Assembly: GCA_947500295.1 (NCBI GenBank)
Contig: CANMRM010000001.1
Location: 1,116,001 to 1,180,000 of the forward strand
DNA length: 64,000 bases
DNA from: an uncultured Kordiimonas sp.
GTDB taxonomy: Bacteria > Pseudomonadota > Alphaproteobacteria > Sphingomonadales > Kordiimonadaceae
Direction of reading: 5' to 3'
Shown here piece after piece: positions 8,925 through 64,000 of the stretch. Numbering within the stretch: the stretch's first letter is position 1; every line of letters starts with the position of its first letter. Position numbers and translations under genes: made by a program. The notes below the pieces were generated by a model. That model did not search any database and was not told where the DNA came from. It saw only the letters and a list, made by a program, of their open reading frames with translations.

Positions 8925-9070
8925 CAATGAATCAATACACACAAAAATCGGCGCACCCATGCTGGCAACGCCGGGATTTTTGTCTAATTCACTTTCCTTT
9001 TGACACCAACAGAATTAAGCGGGCGCTGACACTTGGTCGCACCCGCTTTGTTCTGCACAGAATACCGGTT

Positions 9071-10099
9071 CTAGTTTGTTTCGCCCGCGAGCTCCCGCCG
9101 CCAGGCCTCAAACGCTGTTTCATAGTAGCGCGGGTTGAAAAGCTGCCATGTGCCAAGTGAGGCGGGCACGCTAAAGTCTGCTGCACCTTCAGCCGGCGTT
9201 TTTCCGGCCTCATAGGAGGCGCGTGCCTTTTCTTCCACAAGGTCAAGCAGGGAAGCATAGTTGCGAAGATTGCCAGCCCGTTCGATGGCGCCGTGGCCGG
9301 TTACGATCACATTGTCGGGGTTCTCAAGGAGCAGCGCGACAGACCGTGACAGGTGGCTCGGGATTGCATCGACATAATTGTGAAACAGGCCCGCCCAAAC
9401 GAGGTCTCCGGCGAACACAACGGGGGCATCATCCACATGCACCGCAACATCTGACGGCGTGTGGCCTTTCAGGGGCTGCAGGCGGATGGTCCGGCCACCA
9501 AGATCCATGCTGGTGATAACATCCTCGTTTGTGATGAGGCGCGTCGGCAGCACGGGCCGGATCGCGGGTTGGGCAAAGCTGCTGCCTTCGGGTGTTTGTC
9601 GCGCGCCTGCGTAGCGGTCAAAAACAAGCTGGTTGGTTGTGGTTGTGGCAATAATCTCGGGCCCGGAGGCACCCTGCTGGTACCCGGCCAGTCCGCCGGT
9701 GTGATCTGCATGAAAATGCGTGACGATAACGTCCGTAACAGCTCTACCTGTGAGCTTGAGCGCCTGGTCCGCGAGCCATGCTGCACCTTCGGGCCGAAAG
9801 GACCCATCGATAGCCACGACTTTCTCCTCGCCAGCGATAATGCCGCCATTGCAGAGCGTTGCGATTGCTGCCGGGTTAAAGCTGCCGTCCGGATTGAGCG
9901 GCGTTGAAACCACACCCCAGATGCCAGGGCCCAGTTCTTCAAGTCTGGCAAAAGGTTGCTCGTCCACCACCTTGCCAAACACCGGAAAGCTGCGGGCGGC
10001 AGCGCCTTTTGATAGTCCCAAAAGCCCGGCGGCGGCACCTGTTGCTGCAAGCCCAGCGATCATGCCGCGCCGTGAAAACCCTCTGCTTTGATTGCCCAT
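9071..10099 (-). CDS. Tat-exported metallo-beta-lactamase fold hydrolase
   Basis: MBL-fold hydrolase carrying the HxHxDH zinc motif (THFHADHTGG; H128, H130, D132, H133) and a later GHG segment (VTGHGAIERAG). The N-terminus has a twin-arginine signal, SRRGMIAGLAATGAAAG, so the protein should be folded in the cytoplasm and exported by Tat. The start at 10099 is set by GAGGGGCGG just upstream; the open frame to 10129 is not needed. The subclass is unclear. It may be a beta-lactamase-like or quinoprotein-relay-type hydrolase, and the substrate is unknown. A second MBL enzyme lies immediately upstream at 10211-11029. Confidence 0.85.
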   Translation of the reverse strand: MGNQSRGFSRRGMIAGLAATGAAAGLLGLSKGAAARSFPVFGKVVDEQPFARLEELGPGIWGVVSTPLNPDGSFNPAAIATLCNGGIIAGEEKVVAIDGSFRPEGAAWLADQALKLTGRAVTDVIVTHFHADHTGGLAGYQQGASGPEIIATTTTNQLVFDRYAGARQTPEGSSFAQPAIRPVLPTRLITNEDVITSMDLGGRTIRLQPLKGHTPSDVAVHVDDAPVVFAGDLVWAGLFHNYVDAIPSHLSRSVALLLENPDNVIVTGHGAIERAGNLRNYASLLDLVEEKARASYEAGKTPAEGAADFSVPASLGTWQLFNPRYYETAFEAWRRELAGETN

Positions 10100-51586: not shown

Positions 51587-51700
51587 AATCTGGTTGATTA
51601 CCAACAAGGTAATTTCCGGACCGATTTGCGTGACTTAGGCTCGACGTAGCCTTCCTGACCCACTGGTTAGAAAGGGCCGCACTTGGGAAAGTCTGGAAAC

Positions 51701-53158
51701 ATGAAAATCTCTGCTTCGGCATTCAAGATATTCTTTGCAATCATGACGTGGGGCAGCACCGTCAACGCTCAGGAGATTGCGACAAAAACGACACCTGGTG
51801 GCAGTGCTCTGTCTCCTATCGATTGCCGGTCTGACATTGCTGAAATCGGTGCATCCTGTCTTTTGTTATTGGTGCCTGAGAATTATGAGGCGCCTGACAG
51901 AAGACACATTGAAATTTCACTTGCAGTTTTGAAGTCCAAATCGACAGCTTCTCCTGTTTCCGGTAATGCAGTTTTTTTCTCAACAGGCGGCCCAGGGCTT
52001 AGCGCCATCGAAGCGCTGCCTGGTATCTCGGCACGCCTTGCCAACATTCGAGATAGTTATGATCTGGTTTTTATTGATCAGCGGGGTGCCGGGGGCTCCA
52101 ACCCGTTGCCGTGCCCTGTTGTTGAACCGGGCCATGAAACGCAGGCGATTGGATCGTCGGCCCTGGAGACAAGCGACTATGCTGCCTGCTTTGCCAAGTT
52201 GTCGGAGCGTGCTGACCTGTCACAATATACCACCAGCGCTGCAGCGAAAGACATGGAGCAGGTTCGTCGTGCACTGGGGTATGAGCAGATTGATCTATTG
52301 GCGACGTCTTATGGCACGGCTTTGTCACTAGAGTATATTCGACAGTATGAACCATCCGTTCGGTCCGCCTTTTTGTTTAGTGCGACGGGTCCCGGTGCAG
52401 ATTTGACTTCCAGTTTTGCTATAGACGCGCAGGCGGCGCTTGAAAGCTTGTTTGCTGATTGCAAAGTCGATCAAAAATGTAATACGGCCTATCCGCAGCT
52501 GAGGAAAAAATTCAATATTTTTGTACAGCGACTCAAGTCAATAGGCGGCGAAAACAACGATGCTTACTCACACATGGTGAGGCAGGTATCCCAGGCTCTT
52601 TATGACACCCGGTTGGCCGCCTATCTGCCTTTCGTTATTTCGGAGGGAGCCAGCGGCAGCAACAATCCATTTGCATCAATAGGGGCAGGACTGTCAGTGG
52701 GTGCAACAAATGGTTACTGGGAAGGGCTTCGCGTAACCGCCATGTGCGCGGAGGAGTTTCCTTTCACTGAAGCAATGAGCAACCGTGCGACACGCAGCCA
52801 TTCTTTTTTAGGTGATGCCAATCTGAAGTCAGGACAGAGGATCTGTTCAGTCTGGCCGGTAGACAAAGTTTCTGACGACTTTATTGCACCCGTCTCTGCT
52901 GATACGCCGGTTTTGATGGTCAATGGCGACCTTGACCCGGTGACTTCACCCCTTCGAGCCTATGAAGCCGCCGTTTCCCTCACTAACGCCAAGGTGGTTG
53001 TCGCCCGAAATATGGCCCATTTTACCGGTCCTGCCGGCGCGTGCATCATTGCCATGTTCGAGGAGTTTTTGACCAAGGCAGACCCTCATGACGTGGATTT
53101 CTCCTGTACCCGAACCATCCGGAGACCTGACTTTTATGTCGCTCCGGGGGCCGGATAA
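51701..53158 (+). CDS. Exported alpha/beta hydrolase, tripeptidyl aminopeptidase/S33-like
   Basis: 485 residues with a signal peptide ending VNAQ. The nucleophile is S203 in LLATSYGTAL, the oxyanion region is FFSTGGPGLSAIE, and DLVFIDQRGAGGSNPLPCP follows. The C-terminal TAP-like domain contains TPVLMVNGDLDPVTSP (catalytic Asp) and NMAHFTGP (catalytic His). Five or more cysteines in the mature part suggest disulfides. It is expected to release residues or dipeptides from peptide N-termini in the periplasm, or act as an esterase. The ATG at 51701 was chosen; a TTG at 51683 is an alternative. It shows the same serine-hydrolase theme as the next genes. Confidence 0.82.
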   Translation: MKISASAFKIFFAIMTWGSTVNAQEIATKTTPGGSALSPIDCRSDIAEIGASCLLLLVPENYEAPDRRHIEISLAVLKSKSTASPVSGNAVFFSTGGPGLSAIEALPGISARLANIRDSYDLVFIDQRGAGGSNPLPCPVVEPGHETQAIGSSALETSDYAACFAKLSERADLSQYTTSAAAKDMEQVRRALGYEQIDLLATSYGTALSLEYIRQYEPSVRSAFLFSATGPGADLTSSFAIDAQAALESLFADCKVDQKCNTAYPQLRKKFNIFVQRLKSIGGENNDAYSHMVRQVSQALYDTRLAAYLPFVISEGASGSNNPFASIGAGLSVGATNGYWEGLRVTAMCAEEFPFTEAMSNRATRSHSFLGDANLKSGQRICSVWPVDKVSDDFIAPVSADTPVLMVNGDLDPVTSPLRAYEAAVSLTNAKVVVARNMAHFTGPAGACIIAMFEEFLTKADPHDVDFSCTRTIRRPDFYVAPGAG

Positions 53159-53327
53159 AAGGACATTTCCTGTTCCTGTTACGTGTCAGGTAATCGACAC
53201 CTGTATGCGCACTTGAGAACATTCAGAAAAACCAACATGGACAGAGGATTGCAGATTGTTTCGTGGTCTTGTTTGGGGCCGGTCACACGTCTGCGATCGC
53301 GGTAATGGGTATGGATTGGACAGAGCG

Positions 53328-54356
53328 ATGAATAAAAAGACACACCGCCGAAACTGGGTCAAAATTGGCCTTCTATCGCTACTTGGCCTGGTTGTGGGCC
53401 TGCCTTTGCTGGGCGTGGTTTTTCAAAATGTTGCCACAGTGCTGGACCGGTCAGCCTATCCCATGCCGGGCAGGCGCGTCGATTTGGGTGATGTGACACT
53501 GCATATAAATTGCTCCGGACCCGAGGAAAGCGAAAATACAATTGTAATTGATGTGGGTGCCGGGAATTGGTCGTTGCACTGGGCCGATTTGCAGGATGAT
53601 CTCGCAAAACAAACCCGGGTGTGCAGTTACGACAGGGTAGGGTGGGGCTGGAGCGATGGCGCGCCGCTTGAGCCTCGAGTGGGAGCAAAACATGTTCGGC
53701 AGCTGCATGACTTGCTCACGCAATCGGGAGAGGCGCCGCCCTATGTGATGATCGGTCATTCCTATGGTGGATATCTCAACCGGCTGTACCGTAGTGAGTT
53801 TCCCGATGACGTGAGTGCCATTGTACTGGTTGAGGCCGCACATGAGGATCAATGGTCCAGAATTCCGGCGCTTACGGCCCTTATTATGGAAGAGGGCGTC
53901 GCCAACATGAGAACAGCCGAAACTATCTCGAGATTTGGCTTGTTGCGCTTTTTTGACCTACCCAGCCAAGGTATTTCAAAACACCCGTATCGAACCAAAG
54001 CCATTGATGACGCTGCAAAAACAGCAAAATACTATCTTGCTTTCCAGTCTGAAATGCTTGGCGCTCAAGGGATCGCGAGAGAGGTGAAGGAAACCGGATC
54101 GATTGGGGATACACCATTACTGGTGATCAGTGGTGGCAGAAGTGCCTACGCGTATTGCGACGATGAACTGGGGCTGCCATGTGAAGCAACGCAGGTTGCA
54201 TGGCATGCCATGCAAGAAGAGCTGGCGGCTCTGTCCACTAACTCAACTCACCTTGTTTTGCCGGAGGCAACGCATGCCATCCAACTTGAAGAACCAGATA
54301 GGATTGTCAGGGCAATACTGGATTTTGAAAAACGCCATGCACGCCAGGTTGAATAA
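53328..54356 (+). CDS. Membrane-anchored alpha/beta hydrolase
   Basis: 342 residues. A transmembrane anchor (IGLLSLLGLVVGLPLLGVVF, about 13-32) is followed by a hydrolase domain with IVIDVGAGNWSLHW, CSYDRVGWGWSDG and nucleophile S145 in IGHSYGGYLNRLY. The C-terminal histidine is likely in LPEATHAIQLEEPDR. Its overall plan (anchor, HINC, VGAG, YDRxG, GHS) is shared with the minus-strand hydrolase at 55342-56382, so the two look like paralogues. The ATG at 53328 fits the anchor; the frame upstream to 53256 does not. Substrate unknown. Confidence 0.82.
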   Translation: MNKKTHRRNWVKIGLLSLLGLVVGLPLLGVVFQNVATVLDRSAYPMPGRRVDLGDVTLHINCSGPEESENTIVIDVGAGNWSLHWADLQDDLAKQTRVCSYDRVGWGWSDGAPLEPRVGAKHVRQLHDLLTQSGEAPPYVMIGHSYGGYLNRLYRSEFPDDVSAIVLVEAAHEDQWSRIPALTALIMEEGVANMRTAETISRFGLLRFFDLPSQGISKHPYRTKAIDDAAKTAKYYLAFQSEMLGAQGIAREVKETGSIGDTPLLVISGGRSAYAYCDDELGLPCEATQVAWHAMQEELAALSTNSTHLVLPEATHAIQLEEPDRIVRAILDFEKRHARQVE

Positions 54357-55341: not shown

Positions 55342-56382
55342 CTATGACGGCGCGTCCTGACTGCCCCGGTTGGCAGCTTCCACGATCACGTCATGGATAT
55401 GGGGTAGTATTTTCGCCACCTGATCCTTGTTTGCGACGAGACTCATATGGTTGGCGGTGCCAATTTCAACATGTTGGCCGTTGCTGGACAGGGCGGCGAT
55501 CTCTTTGTGCAGGTTGGCAAAAATTTGGACCAAATTGTCCGGGAAGCCATCCGGTTTTTGCTCATCCGGAATAGGTTGCGTTGCTGAAATGGCGACAACT
55601 GGCCGGTTCCCCAAACTTGTGTTTCTGGCGGCTTGTTGGGCGGCAATGTCAAAACTTCCGCCTTCGAGAGGGGCGGCTTCAAAATATCGTATCAGGGTGC
55701 TGACGTAATCTGCTTGTTCCTGAATGTTTTCCGGCAATCCAGCAAAGTCAGGCGCTGATGCCGTCATGGGATTGTAGATCTCTGTAATGCCGAGGTTGAT
55801 CATTAATTTGACCGTAGCAAGCTGGGCCTCAAGTGTGTCCGCCTGTTCCGCCATGGCGTCCTCATCCAGACCGAAAGCGGCTACCTGACCTGGATGGCTT
55901 GCATCCAGAAATACCAGTCCAGCAACATCGTCAGGGTACTGTTCCACATATTGACGTGTGTAAAGGCCGGCGATGGAGTGGCCGGCGAAAACGAACGGCC
56001 GCTTGATTCCAGCTTCATCCAGCAACGTGTGTAATGCCGTCGCAATCGTCTGGCTATCGCGCGGTAATCCGCTCTCCTCACTCCAGGCGAGGCCCGCCCG
56101 ATCGTAAACACATACTTTTGTCGTTTCAGCTATCCCCTGCTGCAGCCAGTGATAGGTTGGCGAAGGAGTGCCGGCACCGGCTTCTATGATGACAGTTGGA
56201 AGGTTGCCGCTCCCACTTTTGGGCTCAACACAATTGATATGCAGCCTGTATCCGCCAACGTCATAAAGCTCTCCGGGCGGCGGTACATCCGTCGCGATCA
56301 GTTTCAGGAACTGACCTAAAATCAAAGGGGTACCGATCAGCACCAGTAATCCTATTCCGATAACTTTCAGAATCTTCTTCAA
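55342..56382 (-). CDS. Membrane-anchored alpha/beta hydrolase
   Basis: 346 residues. The N-terminal anchor is VIGIGLLVLIGTPLILGQFL. The hydrolase domain contains VIIEAGAGTPSPTYHWLQ, VCVYDRAGLAWSEE and nucleophile S136 in FAGHSIAGLYTRQY, with VVAISATQPIPDEQ and TANHMSL near the C-terminus for the acid and base positions. It resembles the plus-strand hydrolase at 53328-54356. It starts 10 bases after the DUF1611 gene and closes the minus-strand D-amino-acid run, so it may cleave an ester or amide linked to that pathway. The substrate is unknown. Confidence 0.82.
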   Translation of the reverse strand: MKKILKVIGIGLLVLIGTPLILGQFLKLIATDVPPPGELYDVGGYRLHINCVEPKSGSGNLPTVIIEAGAGTPSPTYHWLQQGIAETTKVCVYDRAGLAWSEESGLPRDSQTIATALHTLLDEAGIKRPFVFAGHSIAGLYTRQYVEQYPDDVAGLVFLDASHPGQVAAFGLDEDAMAEQADTLEAQLATVKLMINLGITEIYNPMTASAPDFAGLPENIQEQADYVSTLIRYFEAAPLEGGSFDIAAQQAARNTSLGNRPVVAISATQPIPDEQKPDGFPDNLVQIFANLHKEIAALSSNGQHVEIGTANHMSLVANKDQVAKILPHIHDVIVEAANRGSQDAPS

Positions 56383-56392
56383 TTTGTATCTC

Positions 56393-57427
56393 CTAAGCGA
56401 CCGCTTCCAGCCCGAAACTGGAAATCATCTCCTCAACAATGGGCGCTGATCCATACCGGATAGGATCTACACAGGGCAGCCCCAGGCCTTGAGACAGGTC
56501 TGACAAATACCTGCCGCTTTGTTCCTCGTTCATCCCAGAGCTGTTTACACTGACCCCGACACACCGGATGTCCGGATTGGTTAGACGCCCAATCGCGATT
56601 GTTCGGTCGATAACCTCTGAAATTGAAGGCAGCTCGAAATCTGGCCAGCCAGAAATATGGGTACGTCCTGCTTCATGACAGACGACAAAAGCATCCGGCT
56701 GAGAACCAACAAGCAAGCCGTAACTGACGGCCCCATAACCCGGATGGAAAATCCCGCCCTGGCCTTCGATTACATCCCAGTGATGGGCGTTATTGTGGGG
56801 TGACAAAAGCTCAGCTGCACCAGATACAAAATCAGAAATCACCGCATCAATCGGAATGCCCTTGCCGGCAATCATGATGCCTGTCTGTCCACTGGCTCTG
56901 AATTCAGCGTTGAGGCCAGCGGCCTTCATATCGCGCTCAAGCGCCAATGCTGTGTATTTTTTGCCAACAGCACAATCCGTTCCAACCATAAGCACTCGTT
57001 TACCGGTGCGCTTGATGCCCGTTGCCACAGGCAGGTTCTCGGGTGCAACACGAACATCGACCAGGTTGGCGCCGGACTGTTTTGCCGCTTGTTTCAGCCG
57101 CTCAATGTCGTTCAGGCGTGTGTGAACGCCACCAACAATGTCCAGACCCTGCTGCACCGCTGCTTCAAGGACATCAAGCCATGTGTCAGGAATGGCTCCT
57201 CCGACAGATGCCGTTCCGATAATCAGGGATTTGATACCGCTCTGTGCCGCCTCCTCGACGGTCAAAAAGGGCAGCCCAAGGTCAATGGTTCCCTCTGGTA
57301 ACCTGATTTGGCCCTGACAGAGTTCCTTGCGCCATTCCAACAAGCCAAGGCCAGTTTTCGCGTAGGTACTGTCCGTCGCTTCACCTGTAAAAATCAGGTA
57401 GGGGCTTTGTATCTCTATTGTTCTCAT
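56393..57427 (-). CDS. DUF1611/DgcN family P-loop protein
   Basis: 344 residues. The N-terminal domain (IFTGEATDSTYAKTGLGLLEWR) and a P-loop GTDCAVGKKYTA (G149-K156) are followed by GQTGIMIAGKGIPIDAVISDF, VIEGQGGIFHPGYGAVS and CHEAGRTHISGWPDF. This is the DUF1611 family; a member called DgcN has been reported to act on D-glutamate by N-acetylation in marine bacteria. The neighbours here (D-aminoacylase-like enzyme, transporter, DadA and RidA) fit a D-amino-acid role, but its partner gene dgcA is not in the window. Exact chemistry is not proven. Confidence 0.85.
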   Translation of the reverse strand: MRTIEIQSPYLIFTGEATDSTYAKTGLGLLEWRKELCQGQIRLPEGTIDLGLPFLTVEEAAQSGIKSLIIGTASVGGAIPDTWLDVLEAAVQQGLDIVGGVHTRLNDIERLKQAAKQSGANLVDVRVAPENLPVATGIKRTGKRVLMVGTDCAVGKKYTALALERDMKAAGLNAEFRASGQTGIMIAGKGIPIDAVISDFVSGAAELLSPHNNAHHWDVIEGQGGIFHPGYGAVSYGLLVGSQPDAFVVCHEAGRTHISGWPDFELPSISEVIDRTIAIGRLTNPDIRCVGVSVNSSGMNEEQSGRYLSDLSQGLGLPCVDPIRYGSAPIVEEMISSFGLEAVA

Positions 57428-57465
57428 TACCAGTCCTAGTGTTTAAAGCGTTGTTGGTTTTTGGT

Positions 57466-58629
57466 CTACATAATTGGCCCTTGTGAGCTTGCGTCCTGGG
57501 TGCGGCTTTTCAGTATTTTCCAGACACCTATGGTTAGCAGCGGCACAATAAAGACGGCGATAAAAGCGAGCGTCAACGCTCCATACCCACTTGCGATCAG
57601 GCCGACTATGCCAAATTTCTGTCCAGCAAAAATTGCGGTAGAAAGCAGGGTCACTGCGACAATGGGGCGTGCCGCCCTTGGCAGAATCTGCCCCCGTTCA
57701 TTAAATGATATTTCCAGGCGTTGGTTCACCGCATGCAAGAGGGCTGCGCCAGTCTCGACGAAGGTGCCGAAAACGACGACCTGAAAAACAAGGTTGAGCC
57801 AGCCCCCGTCAAGAGATGCCATCAGAAAACTGGCAGGCACGGGCTGGTCGCCAATTTCGGGGTACTTCCCCATCATCGCAACAAAGAACAGGGCCGCGGG
57901 GATGATGGCAATGGCACCGCCCATCAAACCTGCACCAATGGTCTCCCGTCTTCGCCGGTGTTCGGATACGACAAATAAAACCGCGGGCACGACGGCAACA
58001 TTGTAACCGGAATAGAGTATGCCACTCTTCAGCCAGTCTTCTCCCAGAGGGGAGTGCCGGTAGGTGTCGACGATATCAGACCCGAATACCTGGAAGGCAA
58101 GCACAAACAGCAACAGATACACGGCATACAGAAGGATTGACCAGCCCGCCAAAACCCGCTTGATCAGCTGGGAACCGTTAAAGGTCAGAACGCCAACCAA
58201 AGCCATCATCGCCAGTGTGCCCACCAGAGGCGGCAACCCGAACGTTGCGGCTGTCAGTTCGCCAGCAGCCGCGCCGATAACTGCCAGAATCAGGAGCAGG
58301 AGGATGAGGTAGCATATTTCAAACAGAAACCAGCCGCGACCCAGCAGGGCTCCGCAGAACCGGCGATAGTCATAAAGCTTTGTTACTCTGGCCAGCTCGA
58401 AACTCAAGGCCAGTACCAGACCAAAAACCAAACCGGACGTAACCAAACCCAGAATGCCCCCGATTGGACCAGAGCTGAAAAAGAACTCTATCAGTTCGCG
58501 CCCTGTGGCGTATCCGCCACCAATGACGACGGATTGAAAAATAAATCCAGGTAGGATGTATGTGCGGAAGAACTGAATTGGATGTTTCCTGACTTCTTGT
58601 TTTGGTTCCGGTTGGCTACTGTACGTTAT
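57466..58629 (-). CDS. YkvI-type membrane transporter with non-canonical start
   Basis: About 387 residues if read from an ATA at 58629. The frame is open without stops from there, and codes for the conserved N-terminus FFRTYILPGFIFQSVVIGGG and YATGRELIEFFFSSGPIGGI, the usual first helix of COG3949 (YkvI) proteins. The first ATG/GTG/TTG is a TTG at 58446, which would delete it. About ten hydrophobic helices follow. The start codon is therefore unusual (ATA, ATT or ATC) or the sequence has an error. The gene overlaps the amidohydrolase stop by 14 bases, so it may be reached by coupled translation. The likely role is uptake of a D-amino acid or amine. Confidence 0.7.
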   Translation of the reverse strand: MTYSSQPEPKQEVRKHPIQFFRTYILPGFIFQSVVIGGGYATGRELIEFFFSSGPIGGILGLVTSGLVFGLVLALSFELARVTKLYDYRRFCGALLGRGWFLFEICYLILLLLILAVIGAAAGELTAATFGLPPLVGTLAMMALVGVLTFNGSQLIKRVLAGWSILLYAVYLLLFVLAFQVFGSDIVDTYRHSPLGEDWLKSGILYSGYNVAVVPAVLFVVSEHRRRRETIGAGLMGGAIAIIPAALFFVAMMGKYPEIGDQPVPASFLMASLDGGWLNLVFQVVVFGTFVETGAALLHAVNQRLEISFNERGQILPRAARPIVAVTLLSTAIFAGQKFGIVGLIASGYGALTLAFIAVFIVPLLTIGVWKILKSRTQDASSQGPIM

Positions 58630-60163
58630 TTCTTATGGGCTTGCCCGGCATGACGTCTGTGCGCAATTTTCCGTCTGCAACCAGAATTGTGCCATTCACA
58701 ATGACGTGGCGAATGCCATCTGACGTTTGGGCCGGCCTGGCAAAAGTCGCGCGATCCGTCAAAGTGTTCAGGTCAAAAACAACGATGTCTGCGTCTGTTC
58801 CTGGCTGGAGGCGTCCTTTGTAGCGCATTTGCGGAACTGCTGATTGAAGTATTTGGGCAGGCCCAAAACTGACGCGCTCGATGGCATCAAGCAGCGACAG
58901 GCTTTCAGATTCCCTGACATACAGGCGAAGAAAACGCGCGAATGTGCCGGCGGCCCGTGGGTGTGACCATGCATTCTCGGGAATTGGCCATACGGAGGCA
59001 TCAAGCGGAGCACCGTCAACCATCCAGGCCTCGCCGTCCGAGGCAACAACGCCGCCCGGCATCAAGATGGAAGCTCCAAGTTTTTGTCTGTGATCCGGAT
59101 TTGCTTCGTCCAGAAAATGGACGATTGTCAATGTTTCGGGTTTTTCCGCCTGCAAGTATTTGAATTCCTCTTCGGACAGGCGCTTGCCGCCAACGTCAAA
59201 ATTATGCGCTGCCATTCCGCCAGTGCGCTCCCGCCAGTTGGAGCCACGAAACATGGCTGCTCCAATACCCGTTGCGCCTGCGCCGTACGGATAGGCTTCG
59301 GTGGTTATTCTGACGCCTCGTTGTTGCGCTCCTGAAATCATTGGCCGAATGATATCAATGTCTGTGATGCTGATGGAATTGAGATGCACGATATGAGCCT
59401 GGACATTTGTACTTGCTGCAACCGAAATGATTTCAGCAATACCTTCAAACGAGCTTTCGGGTTCCAGCACCGAAAGGAACCGGGCGTGCGTGAAAGTAGG
59501 CATGTTGAGGTCTGCCGCGAGTTTTGATAGCCGGTAATACTCCTTGCGCCCTGTTCCCGGCGCGTAGCCCAGCAGAAAGCCGACGCCAAGCCCTCCCTGC
59601 TGCAGACCGTCTTCAACGCGCCGAGTGATACCGGCAAGCTGTTGGGCTGTAGAAATTTCATTTTGCCACCGCGGTTCGTTGAACTTGTCCAGAAACCAGG
59701 TGAGTTCATGGTCAGGCTCTATGCCCAGGTGCTCGGAAATTCTGGCCGCTGCCCAGTTCACAGACGCGCCGTAATTTATGGGCCTGCCTTCATGGGCCAG
59801 GTCGTCATAGTATTTGTCTATGGGCAGCGCGCCTGCTTCGAGGTCCAGGGCGGTAGTCACACCGTCCATCGCCTGCATACGCGCTGCGGGTATGGTTTGC
59901 CCGTGAGCATGCATGTCTATAAACCCGGGGCTTACGACAAGCCCAGTTGCATCAATGACATGCGCCGCCTCAATCGCGTTGGTTGTCACAATGAGGATTT
60001 TGCCATCCCTGATGCCAACGTTACGGTGACTGTCCAGGCCGGTTTCGGGGTCGATTACCCTGCCGCCAAGTATCGCAATGTCATATTCGTCTGCAGCCAA
60101 TTGGCTGGTCGACGCAACTGTCAGCAGAATAGCAGCGCCAATAATCTGTCTGAATTGTTTCAT
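58616..60163 (-). CDS. N-acyl-D-amino-acid deacylase-like amidohydrolase, exported
   Basis: 515 residues with a signal peptide (AAILLTVASTSQLAADE). It has the metal-dependent amidohydrolase core of D-aminoacylases: IDMHAHGQT (H85, H87), LDLEAGALP, FTHARFLSV, AHIVHLNS and VASDGEAW. The C-terminal small beta-domain ends LQPGTDADIVVFDLNTL. It would remove the acyl group from N-acyl-D-amino acids in the periplasm, releasing them for the transporter encoded next, with which it overlaps. Dihydroorotase-like alternatives are less likely because of the family spacing. Confidence 0.87.
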   Translation of the reverse strand: MKQFRQIIGAAILLTVASTSQLAADEYDIAILGGRVIDPETGLDSHRNVGIRDGKILIVTTNAIEAAHVIDATGLVVSPGFIDMHAHGQTIPAARMQAMDGVTTALDLEAGALPIDKYYDDLAHEGRPINYGASVNWAAARISEHLGIEPDHELTWFLDKFNEPRWQNEISTAQQLAGITRRVEDGLQQGGLGVGFLLGYAPGTGRKEYYRLSKLAADLNMPTFTHARFLSVLEPESSFEGIAEIISVAASTNVQAHIVHLNSISITDIDIIRPMISGAQQRGVRITTEAYPYGAGATGIGAAMFRGSNWRERTGGMAAHNFDVGGKRLSEEEFKYLQAEKPETLTIVHFLDEANPDHRQKLGASILMPGGVVASDGEAWMVDGAPLDASVWPIPENAWSHPRAAGTFARFLRLYVRESESLSLLDAIERVSFGPAQILQSAVPQMRYKGRLQPGTDADIVVFDLNTLTDRATFARPAQTSDGIRHVIVNGTILVADGKLRTDVMPGKPIRNNVQ

Positions 60164-60192
60164 TGTATCTTCTCAATTCCTTTGATCTGCAT

Positions 60193-62157
60193 CTACCAGT
60201 AATCGAAGCCGATCAAATTCCAGTTGTTGAACTGCAGCATCAAATTTATGAACGCGAGTGTGAGCAAAACATAATGCGTTTTACGCCATGCATTCAGGTC
60301 GCTTTTGGTGAATGCCGGCACTAAGCCAGCCGTCAGCGCCACCGTGATCAGCAACTGAATAACTATCAGCACCAATAGCAGGCTGAGGCTGCTCATTGGC
60401 CAGGCGAAAATTACGTTTCTGCCCAGCGAACTCATTTCCACGATCACAAAAAACAGGGCCAGAAAAACAGCTGTCATGCTTGCTGCGGACACTAACGTCA
60501 GTCTGGAAAGCCGGAGGGTCCACACATTGCTTGGTCTTTGCTCGGATCGCTGGCGCCAGGATGATGCAAATTGCAGAACAGTCAGCAGCATGACCAGGGT
60601 CAGGGCTGAGTACAAAGCCTGAGGATTGGTGTCAGATGGAGTGCGGTGCATCGTCGTATGACCATAGCCGACCGTATATTGGGTTGCCTGTCCATCTTCA
60701 CCCAGTGTGAAGGAAACTACCTCGCCGGACCTGCGCGACCGAAACGCATTGTTGCCGATGGGGAAGTATTCATCTGGCGTGCCTGCGTTGATAATAAGGC
60801 CGTTGTTGGGTGACAGGGAAACCGTCCCCGCGCCAGCAAAAGCGCTGAGTATCTTGATCAGCCCGCTATAGCCGCGCCGTGTTGTCATGTATGAGCCAAG
60901 GAATGGTTCGGCGTCTGCTGGCGAAAATGCTATAAATTCAGGGCTACCTTTGCTTTTGCCACCAATGATCTTCGTCACCATTTGACGCGCCATAATCTGC
61001 GGCGCGGTGGCGAGGTCGGCGCCGTTCGTCGTGATAAAAACACCGATGCCAAGTTCCGGAACCATGATCATAGATGAGAAGGACGTGCCGGTTGCACCGC
61101 CATGCTCGAAGGTGTCATATCCGAGAAGGTTTTCTGTTCGGAATCCATGCGCATAGTCCGCTGACGGACGCCCCGGGTAGGGTCTTTCCTGCATCTTTCG
61201 GGCTGTTTCAGCCTGCAGAATCTGTACGTCACCAACCGTTCCGTACCCCAAATGAGCGCTCATGTAGCGCGCCATGTCAGCAGCAGTTGATGAAATAGAC
61301 CCGGCTGGTGCGCCAACAATCAATTCAAATTCGGCAGGGTCAAGATACCCGGCTTCAGACGCGTATACGCTAGCGACATTGTCTCTTTGCATTTCCGGCA
61401 TTGCTTGAGGGCCACCTGATGGCAGTATTTGCTTTGCCGTCGTTAAAGACATACCTAGCGGGCCGAGAATTCTCTCTTCGAGCCGATCTTCATAGAGTGT
61501 GCCGGAGACTTCCTGAACAATGTAACCTGCCAACGCCGCACCGTAGTTGGAGTAGCTGGTGGTTCCACCCGGAGGGAAAACACGTGCCGGAATGTTGTCC
61601 GCCAGCCAGTCTTCAAGCGCATGGAATTTCTCAGGTTTATCGACAAACAGGTTCCTGTAGGCTTCTTCGAAACCGGGGCGATGAGTTAGCAAATCACGCA
61701 CAAGCACAGGTTTGCCGAATGCAGGTGGAATCTTGAATGCGCTCAGATAGTCGTTCACGTCGGCATCAAGGGATATACGGCCTTCTTCGACAAGCTGCAT
61801 CAGCAACGTGAAAGTGAAGGTTTTGGTGATAGAGCCAATGCGAAACATGTGACGCGATGGATTCACGGGCTGTTGTTGCGCGATATCGGCGTAGCCATAG
61901 CCTTTCAGGACGGTTAGTGCATCGCCTTGAACGACGGATATGGCAGCTCCTGCCATATTATGTTGCTCAAAATTGGCGGCCACAAGGCCGTCAATGAAGA
62001 ACAAAAGTTCCCTGTCAGCCCCTGCTGCAGTTGCCGGATCATTCAATGCATCGCCGACAGGCTGGCTCTGGCTATTCAGTGCACTTACAGCGAGAGGACA
62101 CAAGATAAACGCAATCAAAAAAGCGATTGCTTTTGGTATGATGAATTTTGAAACCAT
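60193..62157 (-). CDS. Serine hydrolase (class C beta-lactamase family) with C-terminal membrane helices
   Basis: 654 residues. A signal peptide precedes a penicillin-binding/beta-lactamase-type domain: nucleophile S109 in GSITKTF (SxxK), YSN motif in TTSYSNYGAAL and the third motif as FEHGGATGTSF (HGG in place of KTG). A beta-rich C-terminal domain follows, and then four hydrophobic helices (for example AWPMSSLSLLLVLIVIQLL) anchor it. The HGG and YSN motifs are typical of D-aminopeptidase, esterase or DD-peptidase branches. In this locus, release of D-amino acids from peptides is plausible. The ATG at 62157 has AGGGGGAA upstream; ATG 62202 is not needed. Confidence 0.85.
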   Translation of the reverse strand: MVSKFIIPKAIAFLIAFILCPLAVSALNSQSQPVGDALNDPATAAGADRELLFFIDGLVAANFEQHNMAGAAISVVQGDALTVLKGYGYADIAQQQPVNPSRHMFRIGSITKTFTFTLLMQLVEEGRISLDADVNDYLSAFKIPPAFGKPVLVRDLLTHRPGFEEAYRNLFVDKPEKFHALEDWLADNIPARVFPPGGTTSYSNYGAALAGYIVQEVSGTLYEDRLEERILGPLGMSLTTAKQILPSGGPQAMPEMQRDNVASVYASEAGYLDPAEFELIVGAPAGSISSTAADMARYMSAHLGYGTVGDVQILQAETARKMQERPYPGRPSADYAHGFRTENLLGYDTFEHGGATGTSFSSMIMVPELGIGVFITTNGADLATAPQIMARQMVTKIIGGKSKGSPEFIAFSPADAEPFLGSYMTTRRGYSGLIKILSAFAGAGTVSLSPNNGLIINAGTPDEYFPIGNNAFRSRRSGEVVSFTLGEDGQATQYTVGYGHTTMHRTPSDTNPQALYSALTLVMLLTVLQFASSWRQRSEQRPSNVWTLRLSRLTLVSAASMTAVFLALFFVIVEMSSLGRNVIFAWPMSSLSLLLVLIVIQLLITVALTAGLVPAFTKSDLNAWRKTHYVLLTLAFINLMLQFNNWNLIGFDYW

Positions 62158-62402
62158 CCGTATTCCCCCTTCACTGACCTCCATTCCTTTAAGGGAGGTC
62201 ACTACAGTCCGTATCAGCTCTAAAATCTCTTATGTGCTGGATAAGCTATTTGATAGGGAAAAAAACAACAATAAACAAGCCTTGATTACAAATAATTAAG
62301 TGTTAATGATTGAATAAATCGTAATAAACAAGAATTATGTCGAGAGTCTGGTGTTCATACCAGATGCCTCTGGCATCACCCCATTTGTTGAAGGCCCCTG
62401 TA

Positions 62403-63674
62403 ATGGTTGATTGCAAAAGCAGTGTTATTGTCATTGGCGGCGGGGTGGTCGGTGTGTCGACCTTTTATCAATTGTCTCGGTTAGGCTTGTCCCCAGTTCT
62501 CCTCGACGCGTCTCACGATTTGGCGGCAGGAACCAGTTTTGCAAACGGGGGTTTGTTGACGCCGTCCATGCCAGAGCCCTGGAACGGGCCCGGCGTTGGC
62601 GGGCATTTGTTTTCATCCCTCTTTGACGCCAAATCACCAATGAAGGTGCGTCTTTGGTCATTGCCGTCGATGGTTCCTTGGGGCCTTAGGTTCTTGAAAC
62701 ACTCGTCGAGAAGAAGGCACCAGTATGCAGTGGTCGCCAACTTCAAGCTCGCACATAGATCAGCGTGCATCACTCATGACGTGGTGCGGGAGCATGGCAT
62801 GGGGTGCGATATGCGCGCTTCTGGCACCATCAAGACTTTCTCGTCAACGAACGCAATGCACGCAGCGCTGCAAAATGCAGAAGCTTTGAACAAGCTCGGA
62901 CTGGAGTATGAGCCGCTCTCAGCGCAAGGGGCCATTGGTCTGGAACCAGAGCTTGCCGCGATACAGGGCAGGGTATCAGGTGCGATATACTATAAGGAAG
63001 ACAGCGTGGGTGACGCCCGAAAATTTACGCATGCGCTTTCCGACATTGCCGTCAGGTTTGGCGGTACCATTCAGAAAGCAACAAGAGTTAACAATATTGA
63101 GGTTAGGCAGGGAGCGGTTGTTGGCGTTGCGACAGCTGAGGGTTTTTTGGAAGCAACGGATGTAATCGTTGCAGCTGGCAACGCGTCGCCTTCTCTCGTT
63201 CGCCCTCATGGTGTTCGCATACATATGAAACCGGCGAAAGGATACTCAATCACGCTGAGTATGAAGAATTGGACGTCGAGGCCCAAGATTCCCGTGATTG
63301 ACGACGAAATGCATGCGGCAGTGACGCCTATTGGTGACAGACTGAGAATTGCCGGCACGGCTGAGTTTGTGGGCAACAATTTGAAACTGGATACTCGACG
63401 GGTGGAAAACCTGCACGGCGTTTTTGCAAACGTTTATCCCAGATTGGCTTCGCAATCAGATCGCGCCGACAGCTTGGCATGGACGGGGCTTCGCCCCATG
63501 AGCGCGGATGGCCTGCCGTATGTTGGGCCGGCAGGCCCTCGGGGGCTATGGGTCAACACCGGCCATGGACATCTTGGCTGGACCATGGCCATGGGATCCG
63601 CAGAAATGATGGCAAGTATGTTGATGGGGGAGACCCCTGAAGTTAATCCCGCCCCATATAGAGTTGCCCGCTAA
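62403..63674 (+). CDS. D-amino-acid dehydrogenase, DadA-like
   Basis: 423-residue FAD-dependent oxidoreductase with the N-terminal dinucleotide fold VIVIGGGVVGVSTFYQL and a central substrate domain. The C-terminal segment with WTGLRPMSADGLPYVGP and VNTGHGHLGWTMAMGSAEM is shared by DadA enzymes. It oxidises D-amino acids to 2-iminoacids and passes electrons to the membrane chain. The ATG at 62403 has GAAGG nine bases upstream; ATG 62337 lacks one. The gene is divergent from the serine hydrolase; the AT-rich 245 bases between should carry both promoters. No motif could be fixed there. Confidence 0.9.
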   Translation: MVDCKSSVIVIGGGVVGVSTFYQLSRLGLSPVLLDASHDLAAGTSFANGGLLTPSMPEPWNGPGVGGHLFSSLFDAKSPMKVRLWSLPSMVPWGLRFLKHSSRRRHQYAVVANFKLAHRSACITHDVVREHGMGCDMRASGTIKTFSSTNAMHAALQNAEALNKLGLEYEPLSAQGAIGLEPELAAIQGRVSGAIYYKEDSVGDARKFTHALSDIAVRFGGTIQKATRVNNIEVRQGAVVGVATAEGFLEATDVIVAAGNASPSLVRPHGVRIHMKPAKGYSITLSMKNWTSRPKIPVIDDEMHAAVTPIGDRLRIAGTAEFVGNNLKLDTRRVENLHGVFANVYPRLASQSDRADSLAWTGLRPMSADGLPYVGPAGPRGLWVNTGHGHLGWTMAMGSAEMMASMLMGETPEVNPAPYRVAR

Positions 63675-63807
63675 AAACAATTGACTGGCTAACGGTTTGC
63701 TGGGCGACCGGGTACTTGTTTCGGGGCTTGCCATCTCAGGACAGGCCAAAAAAGCCGGGCGACGAACGCCGTAGCAATAAAGAAATCAAACGGAAAGGGA
63801 GGTTGAA

Positions 63808-64000
63808 ATGACGATTGAGCGAATGCACCCAAATGGTATGTTTTCAAAGATCGTGATTCATAGCGGGATCGTCTATTCCGCAGGTATCGTTTCAGAACAA
63901 TGGAGCGGTGACATTCGTTTCCAGACTTTGTCTATTTTTGACCAGATAGACAGCCTGTTGGCAGATGCGGGAACCAACAAAGCACGGCTCCTTTCAACCA
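63808..64000 (+). CDS. RidA/YjgF family protein, 3'-truncated by window edge
   Basis: N-terminal 64 residues of a RidA-family imine deaminase (IERMHPNGMFSKIVIHSGIV, AGIVSEQWSGDIRFQT, DSLLADAGTNKARLL), with the usual first strand and helix. The strong ribosome site AAAGGGAGG lies just upstream of the ATG. RidA hydrolyses reactive enamine or imine products to keto acids. Its place 133 bases after the D-amino-acid dehydrogenase gene fits clearance of the iminoacid that enzyme makes. The catalytic arginine lies outside the window. Confidence 0.88.
   Translation, partial: MTIERMHPNGMFSKIVIHSGIVYSAGIVSEQWSGDIRFQTLSIFDQIDSLLADAGTNKARLLST

Follow-up and report, generated by a model that had tools for sequence, protein, structure and literature searches.

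A candidate D-glutamate scavenging locus in Kordiimonadaceae, with a transporter gene that probably starts at a non-canonical codon

What joins the genes for exported hydrolases, a transporter and a DgcN-like protein that lie together in a 64-kb stretch of DNA from an uncultured Kordiimonas sp.? This stretch (hereafter the window; contig C1, positions 1116001-1180000, of a 4.27-Mb genome) had been described in an earlier note as carrying a seven-gene D-amino-acid salvage locus, and the open reading frame (ORF) list confirms the place and orientation of all seven genes. On the minus strand lie, in order, genes for S12a, an exported serine hydrolase; DAA1, an exported amidohydrolase; a transporter; a DgcN-like protein; and a membrane-anchored alpha/beta hydrolase. 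Genes for a DadA-like dehydrogenase and a RidA family protein are divergent from them. All seven are open frames with family support, the transporter excepted. While the genes named in the earlier note are correct, the locus does not end at the window edge, which splits the system: a further ~11 kb of the same contig carries seven more genes. Coordinates are given here on the scale of the window and continue past 64000. Taken together, the genes probably form a D-glutamate (D-amino-acid) scavenging locus of ~20 kb, a reading that rests on sequence and in which we have moderate confidence.

If this reading is correct, a TonB receptor (65096-67375, plus strand) would pass D-amino-acid-containing peptides or N-acyl-D-amino acids through the outer membrane. 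These substrates would be trimmed by exported S12 hydrolases (S12a, 60193-62202, minus; S12b, 70157-72118, and S12c, 72165-74099, both plus), by an M19 dipeptidase (74185-75351, plus), and by two altered D-aminoacylase-like amidohydrolases (DAA1, 58616-60163, minus; DAA2, also exported, 67513-69150, plus). The LeuT-fold transporter (57466-58578, minus) would import the released D-glutamate, which the DgcN-like protein (56393-57427, minus) would acetylate. The DgcA-like protein (69159-70166, plus) would then invert N-acetyl-D-glutamate to N-acetyl-L-glutamate, and a deacylase encoded elsewhere in the genome would yield L-glutamate. An FCD regulator (64215-64895, minus) would act through a conserved site adjoining the gene that encodes it, and DadA and RidA would be a lineage-specific add-on for other D-amino acids. 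What the sequences themselves show is the gene content, its conserved linkage, the predicted fold of the transporter, the conserved site, and coding conservation at the N-terminus of the transporter in the absence of a canonical start codon. All substrates and reactions, which way the transporter runs, the deacylase and the regulatory control are inferred; the spacing of the genes suggests how they may be grouped into operons. In the window's genome, the genes for the DgcN-like and DgcA-like proteins sit in separate arms of the locus.

The DgcN-like protein, a member of DUF1611, is a probable D-glutamate N-acetyltransferase. Its residues 6-334 align nearly end to end with residues 2-330 of PDB entry 7xrj (341 bits), and its best NCBIfam match is NF041892, at 459.9 bits against an equivalog cut-off of 480. 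Its closest named relatives, at 92% and 76%, are from uncultured Kordiimonas genomes. For the DgcA-like protein, which resembles N-acetyl-D-glutamate racemase, the best NCBIfam match is NF042940, at 372.9 bits against an equivalog cut-off of 400. Enzymes of the enolase superfamily use the catalytic residues KxK, D-E-D and K, and the DgcA-like protein keeps all of these when aligned by eye with 4gfi. Both proteins score below the equivalog cut-offs and are therefore not assigned to the families, although they may have the same functions. In the accessible text of one study, DgcN and DgcA act as partners in the published D-glutamate pathway (PMC10845958). The earlier note missed the DgcA-like racemase because its gene lies past the window, and proposed N-acetylation by DgcN as an alternative end point. 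A DgcA-like gene is, however, present in every one of the 21 family loci that carry DgcN and reach 17 kb, which makes N-acetylation the likely first half of a racemization instead.

These 21 loci come from a wider survey, in which 15 cluster proteins were compared by tblastn with 109 DgcN loci. The family set consists of 29 loci from 20 other Kordiimonadaceae genomes (28 others were searched), and the named set consists of the best 80 of 528 relatives; the two sets overlap, L064 and L036, for example, being the same contig. The main tally is limited to loci of at least 17 kb, leaving out 8 of 29 family and 25 of 80 named loci, with a match threshold of 80 bits. The family stretches span ~15 kb upstream to 3.5 kb downstream of DgcN, and genes farther out are missed. 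Besides DgcA, the 21 family loci contain S12 (14 loci), FCD (14), amidohydrolase (14), transporter (13), TonB receptor (11), M19 (7), alpha/beta hydrolase (3), DadA (2) and RidA (1) genes. Of these loci, 14 have a DgcN that is at least 60% identical. Every one of the 14 has DgcA and FCD, 12 have an S12 gene, 12 an amidohydrolase gene and 12 the transporter, while nine have the TonB receptor, seven M19, three the alpha/beta hydrolase, two DadA and one RidA. By comparison, 20 control regions of 20 kb, placed at round coordinates by choice rather than by random draw (19 lie in fourteen family genomes and one in the genome of the window), contain one FCD, one TonB receptor and one S12 gene, and no member of the other families. 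The earlier note had held that neighbors not conserved elsewhere would undermine its reading; for the hydrolases and the transporter, the comparison of DgcN loci with controls shows the opposite.

The association extends beyond the family. The 55 named loci of at least 17 kb contain DgcA (42 loci), transporter (26), S12 (25), TonB receptor (25), amidohydrolase (22), FCD (19), M19 (8), alpha/beta hydrolase (5), DadA (3) and RidA (1) genes. DgcN occurs with the transporter and with an amidohydrolase or S12 hydrolase in, for example, Parahaliea, Alteromonas, Thalassotalea, Neptunicella, Idiomarina, Microbulbifer, Parvularculaceae and Neomarinimicrobiota, and gene order differs between loci. Among cultured bacteria, Kordiimonas gwangyangensis DSM 19435 (L075) carries the cluster. 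Label-free clustering of the ORFs of all loci gave, for the named loci, DgcN, DgcA, transporter, S12, amidohydrolase, TonB receptor and FCD as the top seven families. A DgcN tree was built from the 85 distinct rows that remained once near-duplicates were removed, along with loci lacking a DgcN ORF longer than 300 residues. Both transporter and hydrolase accompany DgcN in 34 of the 85 rows, a hydrolase only in 11 and the transporter only in five. The gene-set label needs at least eight changes on this tree, indicating that the association was repeatedly gained or lost. These data bear out the association of exported hydrolases, transporter and DgcN that the earlier note had proposed, and fit release outside the cell, import and conversion. 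In the same tree, Bacteroidota DgcN sequences (L069, L072, L074, L077 and L079; 63-67% identity) nest in alphaproteobacterial rows beside an Emcibacter row, a placement that suggests gene transfer between phyla.

The exported hydrolases are less readily assigned. Signal peptides and the S12 motifs (SxxK, YSN and HGG) were read by eye in the translations, as were the C-terminal membrane helices of S12a, which matches PF00144 at 200.5 bits. The matches of S12b include alkaline D-peptidase and D-amino acid amidase. DAA1 matches NF006560 at 671 bits, its nearest solved protein being the N-acyl-D-glutamate deacylase 3gip; for DAA2 it is the D-aminoacylase 1rjp/1m7j. As far as the available text describes it, the D-aminoacylase group has a Cys/His/His zinc site close to an HxH, uses a catalytic Asp and has Lys, Tyr and Arg as anchors, and mutating either His of the HxH abolished activity in PpOngB (PMC12017989). 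The zinc Cys is absent from all 14 DAA1 rows, each of which has a Glu one residue earlier; all 14 keep the HxH and have Asn in the Lys column. In DAA2, the zinc Cys and the HxH (counted from the printed alignment rows) are missing from 12 of 13 rows, with a Glu one residue earlier in 12 and the Lys kept in all 13. L060 alone departs from this pattern, retaining both Cys and HxH as an ordinary D-aminoacylase does. The catalytic Asp and the Tyr and Arg anchors are found in 27 of 27 rows. Thus, DAA1 and DAA2 share with the D-aminoacylases AfDam and BbDam, as these appear in the accessible text of PMC12017989, the family, catalytic Asp, His ligands and Tyr and Arg anchors, but both lack the zinc Cys, DAA2 also lacks the HxH, and DAA1 lacks the Lys. 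While the earlier note was correct in identifying DAA1 as D-aminoacylase-like, the missing zinc Cys weakens the case for an ordinary D-aminoacylase role of either protein. They are D-aminoacylase relatives with a changed metal center and a putative trimming role, although DAA2 may do something else or nothing.

A candidate regulatory site lies at 65027-65039, past the window beside the FCD gene. Whereas palindromes upstream of the FCD gene include none that is widely shared, a count of 7-mers in this region gave widely shared words. In 26 distinct FCD upstream regions other than the window's own, the 13-base word is exact in eight, has one mismatch in four and two mismatches in four, and is worse in 10; this core was derived from the same sequences in which it is counted, which flatters the fit. 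Among 1040 shuffles, which preserve dinucleotide blocks only approximately, none reaches 13 matches, four reach 12 and seven reach 11. The site is shared across families, and the 12 best upstream regions are mutually just 57-83% identical. The exact word occurs once in the window's genome, between the FCD and TonB receptor genes; five one-mismatch 13-mers elsewhere in that genome are about as many as a reversed-pattern control gives (4). A 15-base form was found in one of 385 genomes of the class, the window's own; that sample contains no other family members, and the result shows rarity rather than spread. From its position, the site is a candidate for FCD binding.

Several observations weigh against D-glutamate scavenging. 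The DgcN-like and DgcA-like proteins each score under their equivalog cut-offs, and the cluster contains no N-acetyl-L-glutamate deacylase. The zinc Cys is gone from both amidohydrolases, and DAA2 has also lost the HxH that, in the accessible account, is essential in PpOngB. S12b also matches beta-lactamases and carboxypeptidases. Among the 85 DgcN rows, 35 lack both the transporter and the hydrolases within the stretch covered, some of these being from short contigs. Lastly, no copy of the 13-base site with up to two mismatches precedes the minus-strand genes, which leaves FCD control of the minus arm unsupported.

Of the alternative explanations, the one that survives best is salvage of peptidoglycan stem peptides, with the S12 proteins as DD-peptidases, the M19 enzyme splitting L,D-dipeptides, and the DgcA-like protein acting as an L-Ala-D/L-Glu epimerase. 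The DgcA-like protein does match the L-Ala-D/L-Glu epimerase model (233 bits) and 1jpd, and AmpH is the best NCBIfam match of S12a. However, the DgcA model scores far higher (372.9 bits), and a reading of the listed recurrent unlabelled families, with three Pfam scans, gave no muramidase, AmpG or LD-carboxypeptidase look-alike. We consider this explanation unlikely. Because D-glutamate is a component of peptidoglycan, it overlaps with D-glutamate scavenging.

A second alternative, that of the earlier note, treats DgcN and DadA/RidA as branches of equal standing that belong to one system and both operate inside the cell. The DadA-like protein, a flavin adenine dinucleotide (FAD) amino-acid dehydrogenase (62337-63674, plus), matches NF001933 at 341.8 bits, below the cut-off of 383, and its nearest solved protein, weakly, is glycine oxidase 7cyx. 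The RidA gene (plus strand) begins at 63808 and ends 155 bases past the window; its product matches PF01042 at 68.4 bits. The two genes are divergent neighbors of the minus-strand genes in the window and in its 92% sister, and the pair adjoins in the window, the sister (68% and 78% identity) and the K. marina locus (39% and 32%). At the ORF level, this amounts to only two lineages, one formed by the window and its sister and the other by K. marina. In Sphingopyxis (L140), DgcN also has a DadA-like match (26%) next to it, and two more loci (L045 and L116) contain RidA-like genes. The position itself varies: three loci (L037-L039) have no mapped genes between FCD and DAA1, and in L036 an ornithine cyclodeaminase/mu-crystallin gene (8951-10048) fills the slot. 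The position looks like an exchangeable slot rather than a core step. With DadA in two and RidA in one of the 14 close family loci, a core second branch was rejected, and the two-branch arrangement is improbable.

Chance proximity of generic catabolic genes is a still weaker explanation. It draws on the facts that S12, TonB receptor and FCD proteins belong to large families, each seen once in the 20 controls, and that gene order is variable. Set against this are the recurrence of the genes, in rearranged order, across families and phyla, the near-empty control regions, and a common site within otherwise diverged upstream regions, which make chance very improbable. Weakest of all is kinship with the ong cluster for oxidized chitin (PMC9537276, accessible text), in which a D-aminoacylase-like deacetylase, RidA and a deaminating enzyme act on an amino sugar acid: both clusters combine a D-aminoacylase-like enzyme and RidA with transport genes, but none of the 15 scanned proteins is a pyridoxal phosphate (PLP) deaminase, sugar kinase (2-keto-3-deoxygluconate kinase), hexosaminidase or sodium:solute symporter (SSS) transporter, RidA is not conserved, and the nearest solved relatives of DAA1 and DAA2 are proteins other than PpOngB; the idea was discarded.

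Returning to D-glutamate scavenging, the import step would depend on the transporter. This protein has no Pfam or NCBIfam match, and the YkvI-type label given to it earlier is unconfirmed, no YkvI model being among those tried. An AlphaFold model from a 33-sequence alignment (predicted local distance difference test score, pLDDT, 90.7) has the LeuT/APC fold. Foldseek matches of the model include AdiC, BasC, LAT1, AgcS and Nramp, among others, and VIA gives Z scores of 24.2-28.5 over nearly the whole chain among the 50 matches listed. The fold relatives found with Foldseek and VIA do not name a substrate. Separately, five of the DgcN loci (L135, 11991-13142; also L082, L092, L109 and L122) encode a DUF819 membrane protein, which may be an alternative transporter.

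The transporter gene probably initiates at a non-canonical codon. The mechanically listed ORF, starting at TTG at 58446, is too short, since conserved coding reaches an ATT at 58578-58576 with an AGGA eight bases upstream. In the window, its sister (L035), L036, L037, L038 and L039, the interval from the preceding stop to the first helix, which is conserved, contains no ATG, GTG or TTG. Thus, a canonical start is missing in all six species of the transporter's clade, while it is present in all 29 other orthologues displayed; the display used a motif filter that omitted some orthologues, which were read separately. In 16 of those orthologues, ATG (15) or GTG (1) stands at the exact codon that is AUH (AUU, AUC or AUA) in the six: ATT in the window and its sister, ATA in L036 (with ATC just before), and ATC in L037-L039. 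In L037, just four other codons separate the upstream stop from the ATC. A Shine-Dalgarno-like stretch lies 5-7 bases before the codon in all six species (-4.3 to -5.8 kcal/mol), and the DAA1 stop is 37-53 bases upstream, so that the genes do not overlap. The first 47 codons change in the manner of protein-coding sequence. Compared with the sister, they have 20 synonymous and two replacement differences, and of 23 changed bases 20 fall at the third codon position (p = 1.6e-7 relative to one third); compared with the other four species, there are 23-27 synonymous and 8-9 replacement differences. Just upstream (58579-58635), 58 of 60 bases are unchanged relative to L035, though this region is mostly non-coding. 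The sequence features are those of AUH genes: no canonical start and a conserved AUH behind a Shine-Dalgarno sequence in 6/6 species. As the DgcN tree places the six species in a single clade (support 100/99), one origin suffices.

Other genes of the cluster do not share this feature as a rule. For the five sister loci, 44 of 45 gene-locus pairs have a canonical in-frame start near or upstream of the matched N-terminus. The lone exception is the alpha/beta hydrolase gene after DgcN in L037, with ATA where relatives have ATG, GTG or TTG, a possible second AUH start in the clade. In the window's own genome, infC (L172, C1:374731-374985, minus strand) has no ATG, GTG or TTG before an internal ATG, and an ATA lies behind AGGAGA; it probably starts at AUA, like infC elsewhere.

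A weak start could serve to limit expression. In the accessible text of a study of Staphylococcus aureus, three tested AUH starts gave ~10% of AUG output in poor medium, and one gave up to 30% in rich medium (PMC13009471). We tentatively suggest that AUG or GUG was replaced once by AUH, and that AUU, AUC or AUA, each one base from AUG, was kept as an infC-like, IF3-responsive translational valve that holds translation low and throttles import, in a locus whose core would be a variant DgcN-DgcA pathway accompanied by exported D-aminoacylase relatives of a Glu type; selection of a weak start to limit import, and a response to IF3, would follow from this proposal. The AUH-start genes infC, pcnB, ccpN, cvfC1 and rnhC, as far as the available texts describe them, resemble the transporter gene in having AUU, AUA or AUC with a Shine-Dalgarno sequence and group-wide conservation (PMC13009471, PMC13068326). 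Unlike those genes, it encodes a membrane transporter in a catabolic operon, its codon may be AUU, AUC or AUA even among members of one clade, and its initiation there is predicted. A literature search, with most subscription journals outside it, found no AUH-start transporter of this kind.

The membrane-anchored alpha/beta hydrolase (55342-56382, minus; PF00561 above cut-off) is probably accessory, because its gene lies beside DgcN in few relatives (three of the 14 close family loci). Two further alpha/beta hydrolase genes (window 51683-54356, plus strand) adjoin the locus. Beyond the M19 dipeptidase gene lie a LysR gene and then, by eye, gluconate transport and GMC-oxidoreductase genes.

Yu et al. 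(2023, ISME J) reportedly described the DgcN-DgcA D-glutamate pathway. The locus resembles this pathway in its linked DgcN-like and DgcA-like genes, expected from the accessible texts to take D-glutamate to N-acetyl-D-glutamate and on to N-acetyl-L-glutamate (PMC12363236, PMC10845958). It differs in adding exported hydrolases, a TonB receptor, an M19 dipeptidase, a LeuT-fold transporter and an FCD regulator, in proteins that score below the equivalog cut-offs, and in having dgcN and dgcA in separate arms in the window's genome. A search that did not extend to Yu et al. or to most subscription journals found no description of such a gene set. According to the available parts of two studies, D-amino acids are an important constituent of the oceanic organic matter that is degraded slowly (PMC12363236, PMC10845958). 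Named non-canonical starts are few in the accessible literature (PMC13009471, PMC13068326), which makes a transporter with a predicted AUH start across six species a natural test of dosage selection. A conserved locus that combines uptake across the outer membrane with exported hydrolases, a transporter family that has no name, and DgcN-DgcA would tie release outside the cell to the cytoplasmic pathway, and it offers testable substrates for several uncharacterized protein groups.

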